40,814 nt of DNA from a virus. The stretch spans positions 1-40,814 of the IMG/VR virus record IMGVR_UViG_3300044996_000136. One strand, 5' to 3'. The notes under the pieces are model-generated. The model did no database searches, was not told the DNA's origin, and worked only from the letters and a program-made list of their open reading frames with translations. Positions within the stretch are counted from its first letter, which is position 1, and each line of letters begins with the position of its first letter. This document shows, piece after piece, positions 20,397-40,814 of the stretch. Position numbers and translations under genes: made by a program.

Positions 20397-21377
20397 TTAA
20401 GTAAAAAGTAAAAATGAACCCCCAGCAGCTGGTGCATAAGTTACCACCAGTTTCGGCTTGTTAGACCCGTTATCAGCAAATTTAACTGCAATCTTGTTGT
20501 CACCCGTTGGAGCAGAATTATTATAATCACGAGAGTTGAGAGAACCGATAGCTGTTATACCAGTTTTACTCACCCCAGCTATTCCTGTAGCATTCAAGGT
20601 AATATCAGCATAGGTAGCGTCAGTCATGCTTGCTAAGGTTACAGACCCCCAAGAAGTTCCATAGTTGGAAATATTGAAGTCGCCAACAGCCAAATTATTA
20701 TTAGCAGCCAGCGTAACCGGGGTAATTACAAAACTTGTGGTGTCGGCGTCACTGTAGGTATATCCCCTATCAGCATAAACGCTAAAAACCGCACTACTTA
20801 TTACATCGGTGTCTGGAATTGAGGAAGTATCAAAAGTAAAAGCTCCCCGGTAAATAGAATAATTCGTGCCGGAATAGTAAGTCCGGCAGGGAATTTGTAT
20901 TGCTTCATTAGCTACAGCTGCCCCCGCACTAGCGGTTGACCTACTAGCAGCCCAGGTAGTGCTGCCGGGGTCAATGTTAAGCCTTCCATCTACGGTTGTT
21001 GATCCTGAACCTGTATCTGGGTAAGCTGTTAAAGTAGCAAAACTGGCCCAGGGGTGAGATAAAAGGCGTTCCGGTTTAAAACGGATTTCTTTTTGAACGT
21101 CACTTAAAAAACCAGCACAATCAGCTAGGTTCAAACTTTCCAGCATTAAAGCAAATTTACGCATGTAGGGGTCTTTAGAGAAAAAGGTAGCTTGAATTAT
21201 TGGCCTTCCGTTCTGGAAGTCTTTTATTAAATGGAAACCACTTGGAGTAACCTTAATAACCCTGTCTTCTTTATCTATCTTCCCCCCGAATTCATCCTGT
21301 AGCCATTCTTTTCCGAATCTAGTATTACAAAAGGCTAGGATCTCCTTTTGATAAGTAGTAAAAAGTGGTCGGATCAT
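20397..21377 (-). CDS. Tail protein with a DNRLRE-like beta-sandwich domain
   Basis: 326 residues. The first 110 are a separate alpha/beta domain with no known family. Residues about 120-320 form a beta-rich domain: YRGAFTFDTSSIPDTDVISS, then SAVFSVYADRGY, ending KPKLVVTYAP, the plan of DNRLRE-type carbohydrate-binding domains. A role in binding the host surface is likely. It follows the tail fibre gene. Confidence 0.7.
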   Translation of the reverse strand: MIRPLFTTYQKEILAFCNTRFGKEWLQDEFGGKIDKEDRVIKVTPSGFHLIKDFQNGRPIIQATFFSKDPYMRKFALMLESLNLADCAGFLSDVQKEIRFKPERLLSHPWASFATLTAYPDTGSGSTTVDGRLNIDPGSTTWAASRSTASAGAAVANEAIQIPCRTYYSGTNYSIYRGAFTFDTSSIPDTDVISSAVFSVYADRGYTYSDADTTSFVITPVTLAANNNLAVGDFNISNYGTSWGSVTLASMTDATYADITLNATGIAGVSKTGITAIGSLNSRDYNNSAPTGDNKIAVKFADNGSNKPKLVVTYAPAAGGSFLLFT

Positions 21378-21379
21378 AT

Positions 21380-22300
21380 TTATATGTTCTGTCCAACAAC
21401 GAAACCATCATAATTTCCTGCAGAAGTACAAAGAAACCCGAGAATATCCGCCTTACTTGCTGTTGTTGTCAATGTAGGCGCACTTCCCCCGGCCCATTTT
21501 ATCGTAGAAAACCATGTTACGGTTCTTGACCCCGTTCCGTCCTGTAAAAGTCTTAAAATGAAAGTCTGCCCTACTGAGACGTTTGATACAGCTAGAGTTC
21601 TATTACCTCCCAAAGTAACAGAGTGAAAGTTGGAAGTTGCCATGTTAAAGGTAATCGTTGCCCCATCAGTATCTGCGGTAATTGTCCCATACCTAGCGTC
21701 TTGTCTAACTTTCCCTGTTCCTTTTCCCGCAAAGGTTAGATCAATATTTGTATCCCCCCCGGTTGCAGAAAGAGTAGGGGCGTTACCCGTGGCGGCGTTT
21801 GCTACTGTGATTTCGTTTACAGCCGACGCAGTAGCGGTTACCTTAAAAAGTTCATTCGCATTTGTATCGTTTATTGAGGTTATTACTTTAGGAGAGGTTA
21901 TAGTTGGGGTTACTAGCGAAGCATTGGTCATGCCTTTCGTGTGCAACCCACCCGCTTGGGTATGTTCCGCAACTAAAGCGTCAACTAGGTCATTCCAGTC
22001 CTTTGCATTCCAGACCATTTCCACTACTGGAGAAGTATGGGCCTGTTCTGTGGTCCCGTCATATCCCCTGCCCCCGGTAGAAACTACAAAATTACTCCCG
22101 CTTATTGTCCCCTTTATTCTCTCCATTAATGACGGTGTAGCCGTTCCTGAAGAATTAACCCTGTCAAAAGTTAAGGTTATTTCCGTATCTGTCGGTAGGC
22201 CCACCACAGAATTAGGAGTAATCGTTACTGACGTACCCGTCCCGAACGAATTGGTGGTACTTGAATATAGACTTTTATACTTGCGTGCAAGGTCTGCCAT
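21380..22300 (-). CDS. Tail fibre protein
   Basis: 306 residues, rich in Thr, Ser, Gly and Ala, with repeated short beta strands typical of phage fibres. The middle has an intertwined-fibre look (ANAATGNAPTLSATGGDTNI), and the end (VTWFSTIKWAGGSAPTLTTT) is a common fibre tip pattern. ATG 22300 directly follows a hairpin plus seven T residues, with no ribosome binding site. It opens the tail/lysis transcription unit. Confidence 0.75.
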   Translation of the reverse strand: MADLARKYKSLYSSTTNSFGTGTSVTITPNSVVGLPTDTEITLTFDRVNSSGTATPSLMERIKGTISGSNFVVSTGGRGYDGTTEQAHTSPVVEMVWNAKDWNDLVDALVAEHTQAGGLHTKGMTNASLVTPTITSPKVITSINDTNANELFKVTATASAVNEITVANAATGNAPTLSATGGDTNIDLTFAGKGTGKVRQDARYGTITADTDGATITFNMATSNFHSVTLGGNRTLAVSNVSVGQTFILRLLQDGTGSRTVTWFSTIKWAGGSAPTLTTTASKADILGFLCTSAGNYDGFVVGQNI

Positions 22301-30965: not shown

Positions 30966-30995
30966 TTTATAGTTTGCCTGACAAATTTTTGTCAA
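30966..30995 (-). promoter_or_regulatory. Late promoter (TTGACA, N18, TATAAA) containing a stop codon
   Basis: TTGACA at 30995-30990, TATAAA at 30971-30966, 18-bp spacer. The TGA stop of the glycosyltransferase gene lies inside the -35 hexamer. A palindrome TGACAAA-AA-TTTGTCA overlaps the -35 box and could be an operator. Confidence 0.85.
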
Positions 30996-32083
30996 GTACC
31001 CAATACTGACCTTATTAACGTGGAATATTCCTGAACGTGATTTTTAATCTGATGGCCCTGGATAGTCTCAAAGGCGTTTTCTCCCATCTTTCTCCTTAGT
31101 TCAGTATCAACAATCAATTTTGAGAGCTTATTAAACCAATCATCGGCGGTATAACAAAGATAGCCGTTAACTCCATCGTTAACTACTTCTTCATACTGCC
31201 TAATCCCCTGGTAAACTCCGGGCTTACCCGCTGCACCGTATTCAAGATACTTGATATTACTCTTGGCTTTGTTATAGGTATCTATGCTTAATGGAGCTAC
31301 ACAAATATCCGTTTCTGCCATGTAACCGGGGTATTTATTATTAATCCATCTATAAATATCCACGTCGCCATATCCCACACGATACCTTGACCCCCATTTC
31401 ATTTTCCAACGACCAACATGGGCGCCAATACAAAGCAAGTCAACGTGGGGGAATTCCTTAAAGATTCTATCTATACCATCTTCAAACGCCTTTTCTTGTA
31501 AATCAATGAAGTGAGTTGTTGATCCAAAGTGCGTAATAGTTATCTTACCATCGTTTTTGAAAGGCTGTTTATATTTATATAAATCAAGATCAATATAATT
31601 GGGAATAACTGTTATTTTATCTTTACTTTTCTTAGAATCATTCAAAAGAACATTCTTTAGAAATCTGTTAGTAGTTACAACGTGGTCAACGTCGTCTAAT
31701 ATGCTTATAAAATTACGCGCCCCCTCGCTTCCTTTCCTGTAAACGTAATAAGAGGGATTATCGGGGCGGATGTAAGGAAGAGCGTCGTCAACGTCCATAA
31801 TAATTTTAACGTCGTTTTTTCTCGCGAAACATCCCATTGCAGCATAACTCCAAGCGCTGGCGGTGTAATTGAAGAAAAAGACTTTGTATTTTTGTGAAGC
31901 TTCTAACCAGTCCAGGCGTTTATCTTTCGCCTCTTTAGTCGAAAAGATATCCACTTTAAACTCCACATCACCATCTTTGTATCCGTTAAGATACTGCATG
32001 GGCTGGATTACACGAACAAAGTCGACCCCAGATGTTCTTTCCGGCGTATCATGACTTGGGACTGAAAAAATAGGTACGGTCAT
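30992..32083 (-). CDS. GT-B glycosyltransferase (family 4-like)
   Basis: 363 residues with the two-domain GT-B layout. The C-terminal half has the nucleotide-sugar binding pattern KSNIKYLEYGAAGKPGV followed by VVNDGVNGYLCYTADDW, where the Glu of the EX7E-like motif would bind the donor sugar. It would transfer a sugar from a nucleotide donor to a glycan or protein. It is the last gene of the carbohydrate operon and overlaps the gene before it by 4 bases. Confidence 0.85.
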   Translation of the reverse strand: MTVPIFSVPSHDTPERTSGVDFVRVIQPMQYLNGYKDGDVEFKVDIFSTKEAKDKRLDWLEASQKYKVFFFNYTASAWSYAAMGCFARKNDVKIIMDVDDALPYIRPDNPSYYVYRKGSEGARNFISILDDVDHVVTTNRFLKNVLLNDSKKSKDKITVIPNYIDLDLYKYKQPFKNDGKITITHFGSTTHFIDLQEKAFEDGIDRIFKEFPHVDLLCIGAHVGRWKMKWGSRYRVGYGDVDIYRWINNKYPGYMAETDICVAPLSIDTYNKAKSNIKYLEYGAAGKPGVYQGIRQYEEVVNDGVNGYLCYTADDWFNKLSKLIVDTELRRKMGENAFETIQGHQIKNHVQEYSTLIRSVLGT

Positions 32084-32850
32084 TTTTGCGTGTCTTCTAT
32101 AAAAATATCCAATCTCTTACTAAATATGCCTCGTAGGTTCATGTAATGCGTTCTAAAGCCTTCCGTGTCCAGGGGGATATGTTCATCATACCCCCAGCTT
32201 ATACCATTCAGGCCCGGCTCATATCTTTTGAACTCGTCTTTTGAGTTGTTATTAATCATAACAACACGGCAACCGCATAGCCTAGCAACTTCTGTCATGG
32301 CCGTTACGGGATCATAGCAATACATGACGTCACACTCGTTAAGAAGGTCTGCTAGTGCGGATTGGTTTACAGCAAACTGCCTAGTTATGGGAATAGCGTC
32401 TTGTGGGTGAGCGTTAGTTGATATTCCCTTCCCAACAAAGTAGCACGTTTTATTCCTTGTTTTTTTCTGGTCTTTGAATAGATGAAGGTTAAGAATAGGC
32501 AGGAAAAGGATATGGCTTTCCTCCAGGTCTTCATCCTCGCAAAATAACCTAGAGAAAGAATAAATCCTATCACCCTTGTTAAATATCGTTGGACCAGGAT
32601 GGGCAACGCCATTTTCCACCAGGCTCATCACTCCGGGCTTATTTAGTAAATATCTAACGACCGTACTAGCCTCCATGTCGTTACCGTGGTAAATTTCCGG
32701 GTAAACCCCAATAAATTCCTGATTAGGGATCTTAGCATTAAGATAAGCAATCTGCCCCTTAGCAAGTAACCATCCATAAAGACCGTACATCACACGAATC
32801 CCCCCAGAGACTGGATCAAACGCTGGTGTCCTTAAACTGTAGGCTTTCAT
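32080..32850 (-). CDS. Glycosyltransferase-like protein (GT-B half)
   Basis: 256 residues from ATG 32850 (ATGA overlap with the gene before). Residues about 130-160 (CYFVGKGISTNAHPQD) and 175-215 (LADLLNECDVMYCYDPVTAM, then RLCGCRVVMINN) look like the C-terminal domain of a GT-B enzyme. It lacks a fully recognised donor motif, so the activity is uncertain. Context supports glycan synthesis. Confidence 0.6.
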   Translation of the reverse strand: MKAYSLRTPAFDPVSGGIRVMYGLYGWLLAKGQIAYLNAKIPNQEFIGVYPEIYHGNDMEASTVVRYLLNKPGVMSLVENGVAHPGPTIFNKGDRIYSFSRLFCEDEDLEESHILFLPILNLHLFKDQKKTRNKTCYFVGKGISTNAHPQDAIPITRQFAVNQSALADLLNECDVMYCYDPVTAMTEVARLCGCRVVMINNNSKDEFKRYEPGLNGISWGYDEHIPLDTEGFRTHYMNLRGIFSKRLDIFIEDTQK

Positions 32851-33584
32851 AAGACAGTTACTGTCTTTCCATAGTGCGCTATCTTCTTCCAATTTTCTTT
32901 TACATCCTCAACAATAGGCATGTTTGGTATATCCAGTTTGGGGAAGACGTTACCCCTCGCAAAGTGATAGGCCTTAACTTGCTCACCCTTCAACATGGTT
33001 TTTCCATTCTCAATATAAAACTGGACTTCTCGCCCTAGGGATTTACAGCCATAATAGTCCTTGTCTTTATCCCATATAAGGCGGTGCATTTTGGAAACAA
33101 GCGAGTCCTGATACCAGACCAGGTTTAGGGTGTCATTCTCTTTTCTTAGGTAGTCCATAGCTTTTTTATTGGCTTCTTCCCAGATACCCCAGAATTCCGG
33201 CCTTCTTGAGGCTACCATGCCCGCCTGGACGTACATTTCCTCGGAAATGCTATCAAAAGAGGCGTTCTCATAGTCGTTATAGTTCCAGACCCCGCCAACG
33301 TCATAGTCTTCATCGAAAACCCTTGTTAAACGATCCAAAATTATAGTATCCGCGTCAATATTGACCACTAGCTTATATCTCCCAGCTAAAAGACGCGCAA
33401 AAGTTGGCTTCGCTTGGTAAAAATTAATTTTCTCCTTATCAAAAACCCTGTCTATCTCATCCTGCCGAAAAACTACGAGGGGAATATCGGGGTGGAACTT
33501 CTTGAAAGAATTAATAAAAATGTGTGCTCCTACCGGGTAGAAGTACGCGTCATCAACAATAGTAAAAGCTACAGCACTACCCAT
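32847..33584 (-). CDS. GT-A glycosyltransferase with DxD motif
   Basis: 245 residues. The start is a Rossmann-like half (AFTIVDDAYFYPVGAHIFIN), and Asp77-Ala-Asp79 in LVVNIDADTIIL is the metal-binding DxD motif of GT-A enzymes such as GT8. Further segments (YVQAGMVASRR; WYQDSLVSKM) fit acceptor and donor contacts in this fold. The acceptor is unknown. It is one of three transferases in the operon. Confidence 0.78.
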   Translation of the reverse strand: MGSAVAFTIVDDAYFYPVGAHIFINSFKKFHPDIPLVVFRQDEIDRVFDKEKINFYQAKPTFARLLAGRYKLVVNIDADTIILDRLTRVFDEDYDVGGVWNYNDYENASFDSISEEMYVQAGMVASRRPEFWGIWEEANKKAMDYLRKENDTLNLVWYQDSLVSKMHRLIWDKDKDYYGCKSLGREVQFYIENGKTMLKGEQVKAYHFARGNVFPKLDIPNMPIVEDVKENWKKIAHYGKTVTVL

Positions 33585-33602
33585 ATCTTGCTAAACTGAT
33601 AT

Positions 33603-34259
33603 TCATTTTCTTGTGAAAAGTAGAATAATAGCACTACTATCGTAACGCCGGGCAATAAACCCTAGGCTTTCCATGTAGGCAACTAAGTCCCGCCAGGTGG
33701 GGTGATGAAATTCAATCTCGATAGCCTTGATCTTGTGGGCTACGTTCTTAAACCCATCTGAACGTAAAATGTCATCCTCTGCCCCCTCAACGTCGAATTT
33801 AACAAAGTCAACGCTGTCAATGTTGTTTTCTTTAAAGAAAGTTTCGAAAGTTTGAGCTTTGACGGTTTCCTTTTCTTGGCCATAGTCGTTAGTGTAACTG
33901 TTACACGTCCGATTCTGGGATAATTTGTGCATGGTGACTTCTCCATCTTTACCTGCTATAGCCATGTTAAATAAGTCGACGTTATCCCACTCGTTAAACT
34001 CCTTATTTTTCTTTAATGCCTCATAGTGTTCCGATGATGGCTCTATTGCATAGAGTTTAGAGCAAAAGTTTCTCATGTACTGCGTAACTACACCAATATT
34101 AGCTCCTACGTCTATGACTACCATGTCCGTTTTAGTATTAAAAATATCAGCGTAGACCCCGTCAAAATAAATCTCCTTATAGATATAGGGGATAAAGAGA
34201 GAATCGAACTTAATCGGATTATCTTTTGTCCCAACTGGATAAAATAATGCTCCTAACAT
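33603..34259 (-). CDS. FkbM-family methyltransferase
   Basis: 218 residues. VVIDVGANIGVVTQ (about 47-60) is the SAM-binding motif I, LYAIEPSSEHYEAL motif II, and VDFVKFDVEGAEDDIL the hallmark of FkbM O-methyltransferases, which often modify sugars. A good ribosome binding site (AAGGAG) precedes ATG 34259. It probably caps or decorates the glycan made by the neighbouring transferases. Confidence 0.88.
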   Translation of the reverse strand: MLGALFYPVGTKDNPIKFDSLFIPYIYKEIYFDGVYADIFNTKTDMVVIDVGANIGVVTQYMRNFCSKLYAIEPSSEHYEALKKNKEFNEWDNVDLFNMAIAGKDGEVTMHKLSQNRTCNSYTNDYGQEKETVKAQTFETFFKENNIDSVDFVKFDVEGAEDDILRSDGFKNVAHKIKAIEIEFHHPTWRDLVAYMESLGFIARRYDSSAIILLFTRK

Positions 34260-34260
34260 A

Positions 34261-34749
34261 TTATCTCCTTAGACTAATAAAACTAGGCTTATTATTAGCT
34301 AACATCTCCTTAACCATCCCGGGCACGTCCTCTTTAGTTTCCGGGTAAAACTGGACAATATTTAATCCTTTCAAGAAAACCTCAGCCAAAGTGCCATCAT
34401 GACTTGGGCCGTCATGATTATAATCTTTCCCCCTACCAGCTCCTATCAGCTTAACGGGGACTTGCTCGCCATGAAGGTATAAAGCTATAGTTTCTGCTGC
34501 CCGCAACATGAAGGAAGAGATTGTATACACCCATGGGACTTTACCCTCTAAAGCTAAACCTACAGCCATTCCTAGCATGGCCTGTTCACTGGCCCCGCAA
34601 TTAATAAACCTGTCTGGGAATTTATCCCTTATATCATCAAACATTTTGTAGCCAAGATCACCGACAAGAAGCCAGACATTCTCGTTAGCCTCCATCTGGC
34701 GATATAACTCTGCTGCAAAATATCCTCGTTGTGATTCGTGTACATTCAT
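34261..34749 (-). CDS. Transketolase-like subunit, pyrimidine-binding domain
   Basis: 162 residues covering only the PYR domain of a thiamine diphosphate enzyme. FINCGASEQAMLGMAVGLAL carries the conserved Glu55 that activates the cofactor. The usual transketolase C-terminal domain is absent. It should pair with the product of the overlapping upstream gene, as in split two-subunit transketolases. The reaction would move a two-carbon unit onto an aldehyde, perhaps building an unusual sugar. Confidence 0.85.
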   Translation of the reverse strand: MNVHESQRGYFAAELYRQMEANENVWLLVGDLGYKMFDDIRDKFPDRFINCGASEQAMLGMAVGLALEGKVPWVYTISSFMLRAAETIALYLHGEQVPVKLIGAGRGKDYNHDGPSHDGTLAEVFLKGLNIVQFYPETKEDVPGMVKEMLANNKPSFISLRR

Positions 34750-35366
34750 AACTTGATTGCCTCCTCGTATTCTTCTTTCGTTAGTTTGTGATAATGTCCA
34801 TCTAGTCCTTGTAGGAAGTCTGGATATTTAAACATGTCAACCTTAACAACAAGGGCAGGGTAATGCTCCTGCATTCTTAAGTCAAGCCAGTCTACATCAG
34901 TTTTCCCATAAGCACTATATCCATTACCAACCACGGTAATTCTCAAATTCTCCAGTTTTTGCTCATTAGCAATTCGTAAAGCCTCCCAGTTTGACCCCTC
35001 AGCCATTGCACCATCGGAAGTTACACAATAGACGTTTCTATTTCTGTTAGCCAAGGCCATACCGACCGCAATTGGCAGTCCCTGACCTAAACTGCCAGTA
35101 GAACACCAGATACCATCCTCTACATCTCTATTTGGGTGTGTACCATGCTTAAGTACCAAAGCCTCAGCGTCTTTGCCGTATTCCTTTTCCAGTACTACAG
35201 CAAGAGCAAGAAATGCGTGACCATTGTCTAAAACAAAAGGATCATCTTTGCCCTTGATTAAGTGAATGCGATCTATGATATTAACCGAGGTTAAAACTGA
35301 GCTTAAATGAGTTAGCCCATGTTTGTAACTTATATCAATGCACCTACGCTCCAACTTATTAATCAT
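34746..35366 (-). CDS. Transketolase-like subunit, pyrophosphate-binding domain
   Basis: 206 residues forming the PP domain. GSLGQGL (91-97) and the SDGAMAEGSNWEA stretch (Asp118 and a downstream Asn148 in VVGNGYSAYG) bind Mg-thiamine diphosphate. DNGH (48-50) also matches transketolases. It overlaps both neighbours by a few bases. With the next gene it makes a complete but minimal PP plus PYR enzyme, about half the size of a metabolic transketolase. Confidence 0.87.
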   Translation of the reverse strand: MINKLERRCIDISYKHGLTHLSSVLTSVNIIDRIHLIKGKDDPFVLDNGHAFLALAVVLEKEYGKDAEALVLKHGTHPNRDVEDGIWCSTGSLGQGLPIAVGMALANRNRNVYCVTSDGAMAEGSNWEALRIANEQKLENLRITVVGNGYSAYGKTDVDWLDLRMQEHYPALVVKVDMFKYPDFLQGLDGHYHKLTKEEYEEAIKL

Positions 35367-36138
35367 GTTTTTTAAATTCCTCTACCATCTCAGCAATTGA
35401 CTGTTCAAGTGTTTTTTTAGGAAGCCACCCGGTACTTCTTATTCTTAAATTAGTAGATACCCAGTTTTCGTTATCGTAGCTCCTCATGCTTGGGACCTGG
35501 ACAATATTTGCTTTTTTCCCGGTTATACCCTCTACAATCTCCTTGACTTGTCTATTCGTGTAAGAAAGTCCAGACCCGACCTCAAAAGTGCCAGACAATC
35601 TCTTTGCGGAAATGAGGATCAAAGCATTCACCAAGTCGTCAACGTCAATGAAGTCGTGCGTAGGTTCGGGGACGAAGTTCATTGTCTCGCCAGTTAAGCA
35701 AGACCTAATAAGCGTGGGTATCAAATGTGCCCTTTGTTCACCGACCCCCGTAACTGAAAACGGTCTTACAATGGCGATCGGAAGTCCTTGATCCTCTTTA
35801 TATGCCAGGCAGATTTGCTCCCCGGCCTTTTTTGCCCTTGAATAAAATGTTTGACGTTCCAGACCGACAGAAGACGAACTTAGATAGATGAGCGAATCAA
35901 AGCCGTACCTAACACCAGTGTTTATAACGCTTATTAAATCAGTAATATTAGCTCTAACCATCTTCTCTGGCCCAGAATGGCTAGCCATGTTTCCATAGGT
36001 TGAACAAAAAAAGAATCTTTTGTATGGAGAATCGAAACTATCAAGTTCTTCGTGGGGAATAGGTACAGAATCTGGAAGTTTTGAAGTTAAATGACTACCA
36101 ATAAAACCATTAGCACCAGATACAAAAATTTCAGACAT
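35359..36138 (-). CDS. NAD-dependent sugar epimerase/dehydratase
   Basis: 259 residues of the extended short-chain dehydrogenase type. SGANGFIGSH (7-16) binds NAD(P), and Tyr99-x3-Lys103 (YSRAK) with Ser87-90 forms the active site. TFEVGSGLSYTNRQ near the end is typical of nucleotide-sugar epimerases. It is the first gene of the carbohydrate operon, starting 20 bases after a promoter -10 box. It would reshape a nucleotide sugar; the substrate cannot be read. Confidence 0.87.
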   Translation of the reverse strand: MSEIFVSGANGFIGSHLTSKLPDSVPIPHEELDSFDSPYKRFFFCSTYGNMASHSGPEKMVRANITDLISVINTGVRYGFDSLIYLSSSSVGLERQTFYSRAKKAGEQICLAYKEDQGLPIAIVRPFSVTGVGEQRAHLIPTLIRSCLTGETMNFVPEPTHDFIDVDDLVNALILISAKRLSGTFEVGSGLSYTNRQVKEIVEGITGKKANIVQVPSMRSYDNENWVSTNLRIRSTGWLPKKTLEQSIAEMVEEFKKHD

Positions 36139-36158
36139 AAACAAATATCAACTACGGA

Positions 36159-36188: not shown

Positions 36189-36364
36189 GGCTGCTTAGGT
36201 AATTCTCCTACCGTATACTGTAAAACCATCTCAAAACTCCCGTGATTTGTGCTAACCCAGACGGGACTAACAACTAGCCTCATGCCATGTTTTTCGCACA
36301 GTTCCTGATATTCTTTTGAAAACAATTCAGCTTTATTTACTGGTTTGTTTACTTGGTCTGCCAT
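36185..36364 (-). CDS. Small phage protein (59 residues)
   Basis: ATG 36364 to TGA 36187-36185. The sequence (FSKEYQELCEKHGMRLVVSP, then STNHGSFEMVLQYTVGELPK) is of a kind seen in small proteins of several tailed phages, without known function. The start shares one base with the upstream stop (TAATG). Its stop codon forms part of the next promoter. Confidence 0.72.
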   Translation of the reverse strand: MADQVNKPVNKAELFSKEYQELCEKHGMRLVVSPVWVSTNHGSFEMVLQYTVGELPKQP

Positions 36365-36675
36365 TATTCATCACCCCTTGCGTCTTGAAACTCTGCGGGT
36401 AGATCCTCCCCATCATTAGTTTTTGGTTGGTATTTTTTAATAGCTTCGTAAGCTATCTGTCTTACTGGATCGTCATTGAAAGGAAATTCATCCTCATTAA
36501 AATCAAAAGATCTTTGGTCAATTGGGTCTTTGCCTAATTTGCGAAGTTCTTTTGTGGAGAAACCAACTAAATCAATATGGGATTGTTTTTGTAAATAGTT
36601 TATATTCAACTGCGCAATCTTCCAGTAGGTAGCATTAATCCCTTTTCTGTTTGGTAGTGATTTTAGTAATGCCAT
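36364..36675 (-). CDS. Small protein downstream of the tail fibre
   Basis: 103 residues. The start (MALLKSLPNRKGINATYWKI) is like small phage virion-region proteins that begin MALLK..L.NG. The end is acidic (GEDLPAEFQDARGDE). A TATAAT box lies six bases before the ATG. Function unknown. Confidence 0.68.
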   Translation of the reverse strand: MALLKSLPNRKGINATYWKIAQLNINYLQKQSHIDLVGFSTKELRKLGKDPIDQRSFDFNEDEFPFNDDPVRQIAYEAIKKYQPKTNDGEDLPAEFQDARGDE

Positions 36676-36681
36676 ATGTGT

Positions 36682-36710
36682 ATTATACCACTATTTTGCT
36701 ATGCTGTCTT
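36682..36710 (-). promoter_or_regulatory. Possible leaderless promoter (AAGACA, N17, TATAAT)
   Basis: TATAAT at 36687-36682 is perfect, but the -35 box (AAGACA at 36710-36705) matches consensus at only four positions. The ATG follows after six bases, as at 11167. Confidence 0.45.
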
Positions 36711-39482
36711 GCTCCCTACGCATGACATTTCCACGTGAAAATCTGCACTAATACCATAAATTACATTTCCATAAGTATCTGCCGCATCAGCTCCTAGTCT
36801 TGATAATGAACAAAGCAGTATAGAAGATACGGTTTTTCCTGTTCCAGTTATATTTGAGAATGCGTGCATTACGTGTTTATCAGCAACGGCAGGTGCGGCA
36901 AAAGTTAGTGTTTCTGATGTTGCTGTAGGGAATGTTCCATCAGCATTCGCCCATGAATAAGTGAGGGTCCATCTTGAGTTTCCAGAGGTGGCGTCTGGAT
37001 AAGCAACGTGGATATGGATTCCTATATCTGAACCCTCCTTATAATTATGTGGAATTTGAACATTGAAATAGAGAACATTTGTTACTGTTGCGCTAAACGC
37101 TGGCGCTTCGCTACTTTTGTATGCTGTCCAAGTAGGGGGATTGGTTGATGATACTTTTACTGTAAGGAGATTAACTACAACATCATTCCAAACAGTTGCT
37201 GTACCCTCAAAGGTCATTTCCCCACCCTTTGTTATCTTTATCCCATTAGTTGTCCCTCCTAACCACAATGCCCCATCGGTGTCCCCGTTGGCGTCAAGGA
37301 AGATCATGTTAGGCTCTGTGTCACTCTCGACCCTAAAATCAGCCGTAGCGGCCCCTTGCTCGTTAAAAATCGCCCCACCAACACCATCAAAAGAAACTAA
37401 TACTTGAGCGGATGAGTTTTGCCATTCTGAAAGATTAGTGGTTTGCGTTGAATATCCTTTTACTTTAAACTGCAAAATGTCCTCTGATCCTACAATTTCC
37501 AAGTACTGCCCTAGGTGATTCCATCCGTTGTCTGAATAGATAGCCCATGGACTAGTAATATAGGCAGACTTTTGATTCCTTATGTGAAGAGCCATGTTTG
37601 TAGTAATTGCCGATCCTGCCCCTCCAAGCACGGAATCAACGTCAATGTGGTACATGTTGGTTATCGTTCCCGTTGAAGTATTTCCATTAGTCATCGCAAG
37701 GCCAAAGTTATTCGTTACAATTCCAGTGCTAATATTTCTAGCAACAAAGCGAACCCCCTGATTATTTGTGCTTGTGCCAGTTCCGCTATGCTGAGCCAGC
37801 GCATATAATCCCCTAACTGCGCCTGTCCAGTTTTGAGTGCCTAGGGACCTAGTAAGAAAGTACCCTGCGTATGGGACTTTTGCGTTGGCAGCAGCAGTCG
37901 CAGTACAGTAATTTTCCGCATAGATACAATAAATATCTGCGGTGGGATCGGTAACAGACTGATAGAATTGCGTGTTTGTTGTTATGCTTGCTGTACCTCC
38001 AGTAATACCAAAGTAAGTCCTTTGGTTAGTGGTGTCCACATTTAAGACTTGGGTAGTGCCCCCCTGTTGGAAGATCTGAAACGTGGTTGTCGAATTGGCC
38101 GTGGGGGTCAAGTTAAGATCGCCAGTAATAGGATCATTAGAAGCGTCTAGCTTGAGATACGTTGTCGGTACTGCTGCTATAAAGGAATCGATTTGAGCGT
38201 GGGTGTTAGTTCCGATATTAGAAAGCGTAGTATGATTGATTTGTGCTCCATCTCCTCCATTGTGGTCGTGTGAGTCTCCGTTTGTAACTAATTTTCCACT
38301 AAAATCAGAGTAATGAACTCCATCCAGCATATCTGCATTCAGATTTGTATTTAGTGTGGTTGAAGTGGTGGCGTATGGTTGCGTACCTACCGCTACCGTG
38401 GAAACAAAGTTATATGCGTTTTGAACTCCCTTGATGTAAGAATTTCCCCTTACAAGCTCGTTTCTGGAGCTTTCATCGTCTATAAGATCAACAAATATCG
38501 GGTTAGTCCAGGCTACAGCAGTACCACCAGTTATCCTGCATCTTATGTACAATTCTGTGCCTGTTATCGTGTAGGAAGCAGACGTAGTTGATGAGTTTGT
38601 CTGGATGATTGATCCCTTTGAGTACCATTCAAAGGTTGAGGACTGATTAGTGGAGATTGTTATGGTGTTTCCGCTTTGGGTTATAGTTAAGACGTGTTCC
38701 GTCTGTCCTGAGGGTGTTTTAACAGAGTAAAAGTTTCCCGCCTTTAGAGAATCCAAAATGTTTGAAGCCGTTAAACTATTCGCATACACCTTTACTGCCT
38801 GTTTGCCCGCATATCCCGCTGAGATGTCGTGTAGGTCATCAACTGAAGACACCCACAGTTTTTTTCCCTTAGTAAGAACCGTATCTATTTCGGTATCAAA
38901 TTCGTCGTTCCTGATACCATTCCATATTTCCATGCCAAAGTAGCCGTTTGTTTGCTCAATATCGGTAGTTTCCCACCCATTAGCTCCCCCGCCAGGGTGG
39001 TTTAATTCCATGTAATTACTATCAGCGGTTCCCAAGTCTATAGTCGTTTGAGCCGCTTGGAGTGATTGATCAGTTACACTTATCCCCATTTTCTTCAAAT
39101 GGGCTGCATTACCTATTGGTGCGGTAACGTAGTCCTCATCACCAAGGATAAATAAGATTCCTGAAACACCAGGATCGGGGGTTACATAGTCATGGTCGGT
39201 TATTGAGACGAAGTCATAACTTAACCCTTTATAAAAGTTCATAACAGTCGTGGGAGAATCCGGCACACCTGCGGAATTAGAGGTATGGCAGTGTATTTGC
39301 CCTTTATAGGTGTTAGTTTTAGAGTGTTTGTATGGGTTTACAATATCAACACGCTTGCCCTGAAAGGTGTTGTCCTTTATTTTTAGATAGCGGGAATCAA
39401 TAACGGCCCCTAGATCACTCTCGGAGTGATCGTGCATGACAAGATTCTTTTTTACAAGAAAATCAATGGTTGGACTAGCCAT
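36699..39482 (-). CDS. Tail fibre/receptor-binding protein with an intact PHP phosphoesterase domain
   Basis: 927 residues. Residues about 58-255 form a PHP domain with its full metal-binding set: His64 and His66 (IHCHTS), Asp96-His97-Asp98 (ITDHDYV), His162 (LNHPGG), Glu185 (MEIWN) and Asp216/His218 (VDDLHD). The rest is beta-rich fibre, ending in a segment (HIHVAYPDATSGNSRW) common to fibre tips. PHP enzymes hydrolyse phosphate esters, so this fibre may cleave a phosphate-containing surface polymer. Metal sites and fibre composition are seen; the substrate is inference. Confidence 0.82.
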   Translation of the reverse strand: MASPTIDFLVKKNLVMHDHSESDLGAVIDSRYLKIKDNTFQGKRVDIVNPYKHSKTNTYKGQIHCHTSNSAGVPDSPTTVMNFYKGLSYDFVSITDHDYVTPDPGVSGILFILGDEDYVTAPIGNAAHLKKMGISVTDQSLQAAQTTIDLGTADSNYMELNHPGGGANGWETTDIEQTNGYFGMEIWNGIRNDEFDTEIDTVLTKGKKLWVSSVDDLHDISAGYAGKQAVKVYANSLTASNILDSLKAGNFYSVKTPSGQTEHVLTITQSGNTITISTNQSSTFEWYSKGSIIQTNSSTTSASYTITGTELYIRCRITGGTAVAWTNPIFVDLIDDESSRNELVRGNSYIKGVQNAYNFVSTVAVGTQPYATTSTTLNTNLNADMLDGVHYSDFSGKLVTNGDSHDHNGGDGAQINHTTLSNIGTNTHAQIDSFIAAVPTTYLKLDASNDPITGDLNLTPTANSTTTFQIFQQGGTTQVLNVDTTNQRTYFGITGGTASITTNTQFYQSVTDPTADIYCIYAENYCTATAAANAKVPYAGYFLTRSLGTQNWTGAVRGLYALAQHSGTGTSTNNQGVRFVARNISTGIVTNNFGLAMTNGNTSTGTITNMYHIDVDSVLGGAGSAITTNMALHIRNQKSAYITSPWAIYSDNGWNHLGQYLEIVGSEDILQFKVKGYSTQTTNLSEWQNSSAQVLVSFDGVGGAIFNEQGAATADFRVESDTEPNMIFLDANGDTDGALWLGGTTNGIKITKGGEMTFEGTATVWNDVVVNLLTVKVSSTNPPTWTAYKSSEAPAFSATVTNVLYFNVQIPHNYKEGSDIGIHIHVAYPDATSGNSRWTLTYSWANADGTFPTATSETLTFAAPAVADKHVMHAFSNITGTGKTVSSILLCSLSRLGADAADTYGNVIYGISADFHVEMSCVGSKTA

Positions 39483-40578: not shown

Positions 40579-40814
40579 CTATGTCGCGGAAAACCGACAA
40601 GTTAATACCCAGCTGGAGTTGAGTATTTTTGCCGCGTACGATCCAGCCCATGACACCTTCGACAATCTCCCTACTGGGGAGTTTGTGTCAACTGCATTGG
40701 CCAGAATGTACAACTTGGGTTTGTCTCCTTCAAGGTCATAAGCCCCGAACGCGTCCATACCGTGGACATAAGTGTAGAACCTAACTACGCCTGACGACGC
40801 GGTTGAGGTTGCCT
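40579..40814 (-). CDS. Major capsid protein, 3' part (see 1-854)
   Basis: The C-terminal part of the capsid gene, ending at TAG 40581-40579. Bases 40688-40814 repeat 1-127. The joined frame has 320 codons before the stop (963 bases in all), with no frameshift at the join. Confidence 0.88.
   Translation of the reverse strand, partial: ATSTASSGVVRFYTYVHGMDAFGAYDLEGDKPKLYILANAVDTNSPVGRLSKVSWAGSYAAKILNSSWVLTCRFSAT
40688..40814. repeat. Terminal direct repeat, right copy
   Basis: Identical to bases 1-127. It supports a closed circular assembly of about 40,687 bp. Confidence 0.95.

Follow-up and report, generated by a model that had tools for sequence, protein, structure and literature searches.

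The window, that is, the whole 40,814-nucleotide stretch of viral DNA analysed here (IMG/VR record IMGVR_UViG_3300044996_000136), carries on its minus strand a gene for a long fibre-like protein, the N-terminal part of which contains a PHP module homologous to cellular CehA/McbA metallohydrolases. The features of this gene, and the gene that follows it, are:

36699..39482, minus strand: open reading frame with an ATG start, encoding the PHP-bearing, virion-fibre-like protein of 927 aa, with fibre repeats and a C-terminal domain common to other viral fibre-like proteins
38478..39362, minus strand: complete CehA/McbA-type PHP module, residues 41-335, made of a barrel and a C-terminal beta-sandwich
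38478..38690, minus strand: C-terminal beta-sandwich of the PHP module, residues ~265-335, lying beyond the coordinates of the first-pass annotation
39285..39293, minus strand: motif I HxH (H64-C65-H66), ligands 1 and 2, invariant in 38 sequences
39270..39272, minus strand: Ala71, codon GCA, the lost ligand 3, Asp in 9/9 viral relatives
39192..39197, minus strand: motif II (D96-H97), with H97 as ligand 4 by alignment
39135..39137, minus strand: E116, ligand 5 by alignment
39099..39101, minus strand: H128, ligand 6 by alignment
38997..38999, minus strand: H162 within NHPGG, ligand 7 by alignment
38829..38837, minus strand: motif IV (D216-L217-H218), ligands 8 and 9 by alignment
38286..38480, minus strand: fibre repeat '..YATTSTTLNTNLNADMLDGVHYSDF', residues ~335-399, 37-68% identical to L106-L111
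36702..37298, minus strand: C-terminal fibre domain, found also in L106, a fibre without PHP
36364..36675, minus strand: small protein, phrog_5084, directly downstream of the fibre

The genome is podovirus-like, with a large terminase, a head-tail connector, an SU10-type adaptor, a second tail-fibre gene and a peptidase/endolysin, and its closest annotated terminase (44% identity) is that of the Podoviridae genome MW202510. A 127-base terminal direct repeat (positions 1-127 recur at 40688-40814), together with a contig, L114, that crosses the join, indicates that the record is a complete circular map of ~40.69 kb; IMG/VR classes the record as linear, and the capsid gene spans the record ends. 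Read downstream, the circular map has the capsid gene, the fibre gene a few genes later, and after it the genes for internal virion proteins and the adaptor; a sugar-gene cassette separates the fibre gene from the internal-virion-like genes. This cassette (30992-36144, minus strand) encodes an NAD-dependent epimerase, a transketolase split into two genes, an FkbM methyltransferase, a possible aminotransferase and a glycosyltransferase. Glycosyltransferase- and epimerase-like genes also adjoin the fibre gene of L104, another phage with a PHP-bearing fibre. The second tail-fibre-type protein of the window (21380-22300, minus strand; phrog_9017, E 5e-11) is adjoined by an open reading frame (20397-21377) with a beta-rich C-terminus.

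When searched at full length, the 927-aa protein had no match in Pfam, PHROGs or NCBIfam, curated tail-fibre profiles included, and single-sequence searches of the PDB gave nothing real, only profile queries being successful. Trimmed to the module, the sequence aligned with positions 3-315 of the 315 positions of NCBIfam NF038032 (E 1.8e-16, 60.5 bits); since this score falls short of the curated cut-off of 80 bits, we call the module a relative of CehA/McbA and not a formal member. Consistently, tblastn of the trimmed module against plasmid records retrieved annotated CehA/McbA metallohydrolases (best E 6e-9), with six records matched over at least 80% of the query, and the alignment with six cellular CehA/McbA proteins runs through the whole module, the beta-sandwich of which ends in AWTNPIF, a hallmark of this family.

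A profile built of 38 sequences reaches the PHP structures 2anu (3e-17), RNase AM (4e-14) and 3e38 (2e-12), and also 9etk, 3e0f, 2yb1 and PolX. With the same 38-sequence alignment, AlphaFold2 modelled residues 1-341 at a pLDDT of 87.9 and a pTM of 0.85 (low confidence for residues 1-33), and Foldseek matched the module model to 3e38 (6e-11), RNase AM 7ug9 (2e-8) and 2anu (3e-8), as well as to EndoQ, Mtb DnaE1 and YcdX. The predicted fold is that of the PHP barrel, which places the module in the PHP superfamily. In a library of viral structures (BFVD) the sole strong match was a 393-aa 'PHP N-terminal domain-containing protein' of a metagenomic siphovirus, and the sensible matches that followed were mostly phage DNA polymerases. 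Origin from the PHP domain of a DNA polymerase was rejected, as the module is nearest to cellular CehA/McbA proteins and the phage DnaE PHPs are distant. The first-pass annotation had recognised a PHP domain at 38690-39330, and this interval, residues ~52-264, is indeed the catalytic PHP barrel; its limits were drawn too short, the true extent being residues ~41-335 with the beta-sandwich included.

Metal-binding PHP domains use nine ligands in the order H H D/H H E H C/H D/N H (PMC3666897), of which the module in the window keeps eight (H64, H66, H97, E116, H128, H162, D216 and H218). D96, E185, N188 and D215 are also kept in the alignment. By both NF038032 and AlphaFold2 the domain is complete, as had been proposed, and H64 and H66 are where they had been placed, but the claim of a full set of ligands fails at ligand 3, and an intact active site in this protein is contradicted by Ala71. 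This position is Asp in 35 of the 38 aligned sequences, the exceptions being the window (Ala), L045 (Gly) and L047 (Gln). The latter two (L045:8001-8861 and L047:8001-8888) are cellular CehA/McbA relatives, so that loss of ligand 3 occurs naturally in the family.

A sequencing error behind Ala71 is unlikely: the GCA codon is at least two base changes away from any Asp codon, and a single-base error would therefore not explain it. The residue is read from one contig, as L114, the other contig of this phage, does not cover the fibre gene. In Mycobacterium tuberculosis DnaE1, the substitution D23N abolishes exonuclease activity (PMC5636811), and D23 would, by the order of motifs, correspond to PHP ligand position 3. 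For the phage of the window, Ala71 thus makes it a serious alternative that the module is less active, uses metals differently or serves only to bind.

Profile-guided scans of IMG/VR yielded nine further distinct viral genomes, each with one copy of the module, in open reading frames of 650-1016 aa. The nine modules are 27-36% identical to that of the window (alignment A5) and are distributed as follows:

L009: 873 aa, PHP module at 152-434
L010: 855 aa, PHP module at 1-286
L011: 842 aa, PHP module at 266-563
L014 and L015: 750 aa each, PHP module at 129-418
L016: 891 aa, PHP module at 165-450
L101: 651 aa, PHP module C-terminal, in a 308-kb phage
L103: 1013 aa, PHP module C-terminal
L104: 857 aa, PHP module at 274-571

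Several of these are tail-type proteins by their own matches or their neighbours. In L010 a Prophage_tail (Tal) domain stands behind the PHP module (E 1e-23) and Dit is encoded upstream (E 5e-33); L014 and L016 match the tail-fibre families phrog_4492 (E 4e-53) and phrog_14469 (E 9e-14). The N-terminus of the L009 protein resembles BppU_N (E 1e-4, slightly short of the cut-off of Pfam), and the L009 gene comes after one for an internal-virion/stabilisation-type protein, and L103 lies in a baseplate region, after the hub (E 8e-79). The proteins of L011, L101 and L104 are probable tail proteins, judged by size, architecture and neighbours. The module is N-terminal, central or C-terminal depending on the phage, which argues for cassette-like exchange. 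The first-pass annotation had proposed looking for PHP domains fused to fibres in other phages, and at least nine further phages, with the module in tail-type proteins, answer to that description.

All nine viral relatives keep the Asp at position 3, both motif-I histidines, H97, H162, D216 and H218, which argues that catalysis is retained in the family. Ligand 5 appears offset by one column in several of the viral rows (S-V-E, S-C-E, S-Y-E), which probably retain this Glu. At ligand position 6, Glu stands in place of His in L011 and L104, as it does in the cellular L021, possibly representing a variant metal site.

No PHP-fibre module was found among the cultured phages of INPHARED (50,697 records). 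Two apparent matches there were discarded, FL-1 as a chance similarity (31.6% over 76 aa, E 1) and MT835755 because it looks like a piece of bacterial chromosome, with an operon for an ABC transporter. The latter (L012, MT835755.1), filed in INPHARED as 'Bacteriophage sp.', carries an ABC sugar transporter and a methionine synthase-like gene and is probably a misfiled bacterial fragment. A search for PHP-fibre prophages in a sample of 689 bacterial genomes returned only frames of ~295-409 aa, consistent with stand-alone enzymes.

The remainder of the protein in the window resembles viral fibres. The repeat STTLNTNLNADMLDG (fibre residues ~335-399) is common to many viral proteins. L106 is a fibre-like protein of 636 aa that has the fibre repeats and the C-terminal region of the window protein and no PHP, and a scan of the whole L106 record for PHP found none. 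By sequence, then, L106 is an empty version of the scaffold of the window fibre, and a fibre with matching repeats and C-terminus that does without the module suggests that the PHP module is swappable. A 104-aa protein is similarly placed beside the L106 fibre; it has no PHROG match, and its putative homology with the phrog_5084 protein of the window is judged by position and resemblance. For the C-terminal fibre domain, the fold model was unreliable (pLDDT 46) and was set aside. A homologue of this domain on another viral contig (L105:8001-8537) has three stop codons in the standard code, and this contig may use a reassigned stop codon.

In a maximum-likelihood tree the nine viral relatives form one clade (96/90), which is joined by the window on a weakly supported branch (74/17); the ten viral modules together with L020, from Atribacterota, are well supported (95/90). 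The terminal branch of the window is long, 1.44 compared with a median of 0.59. Most of the 80 cellular loci examined encode stand-alone proteins of ~300 aa. Read by eye, L020 has a lipobox-like N-terminus and would be a lipoprotein, and L019 (Methanomassiliicoccus) has an N-terminal hydrophobic anchor, which suggests that proteins in this part of the family act extracytoplasmically. The neighbourhood of L019, also read by eye, is a polysaccharide-gene region, with flippase, acetyltransferase and pectate-lyase-like open reading frames.

With this in mind, we propose that the PHP module is a shuffled, tail-borne hydrolase of a host surface polymer, which in the phage of the window may be weakened or only a binder; we would put the probability of this reading at roughly 55%. 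According to this model, the N-terminal third of the fibre would be a CehA/McbA-type PHP module that was captured by phages and passed among virion-appendage proteins. Homology, fold, the inventory of ligands, recurrence in tail-type proteins and a fibre of like scaffold without PHP are observed; that the module sits on the virion, where it would meet the host surface polymer at attachment, is our inference, as are catalysis, the substrate and a role in entry. The two- or three-metal site of the family would most likely hydrolyse a phosphodiester, a phosphomonoester or another ester, and the predicted target is a surface glycan or a teichoic-acid-like polymer. Hydrolysis would clear the path or process the receptor, as is thought for the GDPD domains of enterococcal phage tail modules, which are proposed to attack teichoic acids (PMC10194240). 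The copy in the window, with its change from Asp to Ala, would be an enzyme of lower or altered activity, or else a module retained for ligand binding.

The same Ala71 may be taken further, to mean that the PHP domain of the window is degenerate, a non-catalytic binding (lectin-like) or structural domain. There is precedent in the PHP domain of Escherichia coli Pol III alpha, which is without some ligands and structural and yet still a PHP domain, and ligand-poor PHP domains do persist as structural elements (PMC3666897). The presence of Asp in all nine viral relatives, a codon that a single-base error would not produce and the long terminal branch of the window fit such a decay. However, retention of the other eight ligands, and of D96, E185, N188 and D215, would be unexpected after a long loss of catalysis, and we regard this explanation as possible but doubtful.

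The first-pass annotation had suggested a phosphodiester-linked or phosphorylated surface polymer as the target, but the bond that the module would cut could also be an ester of another kind, since CehA and McbA, the characterised enzymes from which the family takes its name, hydrolyse carbamate esters (PMC8292978). The module would then be a tail hydrolase acting on a carbamate, a carboxyl ester or some other surface-glycan modification instead of a phosphoester. CehA, however, is far longer than the module, its substrates are man-made pesticides or plant carbamates, and PolX, DnaE, RNase AM, the nucleoside bisphosphatase and histidinol phosphatase use phosphoesters, like most characterised PHP enzymes; we therefore think such chemistry unlikely. 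As to where on the particle the protein sits, the tail fibre that the first-pass annotation had assumed agrees with the shared fibre repeats and with the tail-type relatives, but a gene placed between capsid and tail genes suits a head fibre as well. In that case the protein would be a fibre or decoration of the head, with a PHP domain that helps the virion to stick to or cross extracellular polymers and takes no part in DNA entry; the place of its gene on the circular map, shortly after the capsid gene and before those for internal virion proteins and the adaptor, and the presence of another tail-fibre gene at 21380-22300 would fit this. The modules of the relatives, which lie in tail-type proteins behind Dit, in a BppU-like context or near the baseplate hub, speak against this, and we consider it rather improbable.

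Tail-borne enzymes help to set the host range of phages and are used as capsule-removing tools. To our knowledge, the classes described so far are mostly glycosidases, lyases, peptidases, esterases and GDPD. In the open-access journal literature we found nothing relevant on PHP in tail fibres, receptor-binding proteins or depolymerases, and no PHP domain is named for phage tail proteins among the PHROG and Pfam families, which agrees with the earlier remark that PHP is not known as a standard tail depolymerase. Tail-borne enzymes are a known kind, of which the PHP-type tail module is a new variety. A PHP metallohydrolase that recurs in tails unrelated to one another would extend the known classes of tail enzyme, hint at a surface polymer that has so far not been thought of as a receptor, and open a way to find substrates for the CehA/McbA family, which is poorly understood. 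One may even speculate, tentatively, that PHP hydrolases are an unrecognised class of tail enzymes, dispersed in cassette form among podo-, sipho-, myo-like and jumbo phages and acting on a phosphorylated or esterified host polymer, with the copy in the window turned into a receptor binder. Automated annotation overlooks the module, as the full-length protein gives no Pfam, PHROGs or NCBIfam match.

Compared with known systems, the module is most like the bacterial and archaeal CehA/McbA proteins (NF038032), with which it shares the whole-length profile, the metal motifs and a beta-sandwich ending in AW(S/T)(Q/N)P; the cellular members are mostly stand-alone proteins of ~300 aa, whereas the module of the window is fused into a 927-aa fibre and is without the Asp at position 3. 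BVU_3505 of Bacteroides (PDB 3e38), the best Foldseek match (E 6e-11), also combines a PHP barrel with a second beta domain, but is only 16% identical and not a phage protein, and the high whole-chain rmsd indicates that the two domains sit differently. RNase AM/RNM (7ug9, 9etk) and the 3',5'-nucleoside bisphosphate phosphatase (2yb1) share the PHP fold and the order of ligands; in contrast to the module, they are cellular enzymes that act on nucleic acids or nucleotides, have their domains arranged differently and do not occur in the context of a virion. The PHP domains of phage DnaE-like polymerases (BFVD) show the PHP fold in a phage protein, but these are structurally distant (TM ~0.35) replication proteins that are not on the virion. 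Searches gave no GDPD (PF03009) match for the window protein; the GDPD tail domains (PMC10194240), although of an unrelated protein family, are the closest functional analogue, a predicted phosphodiesterase in a tail module.
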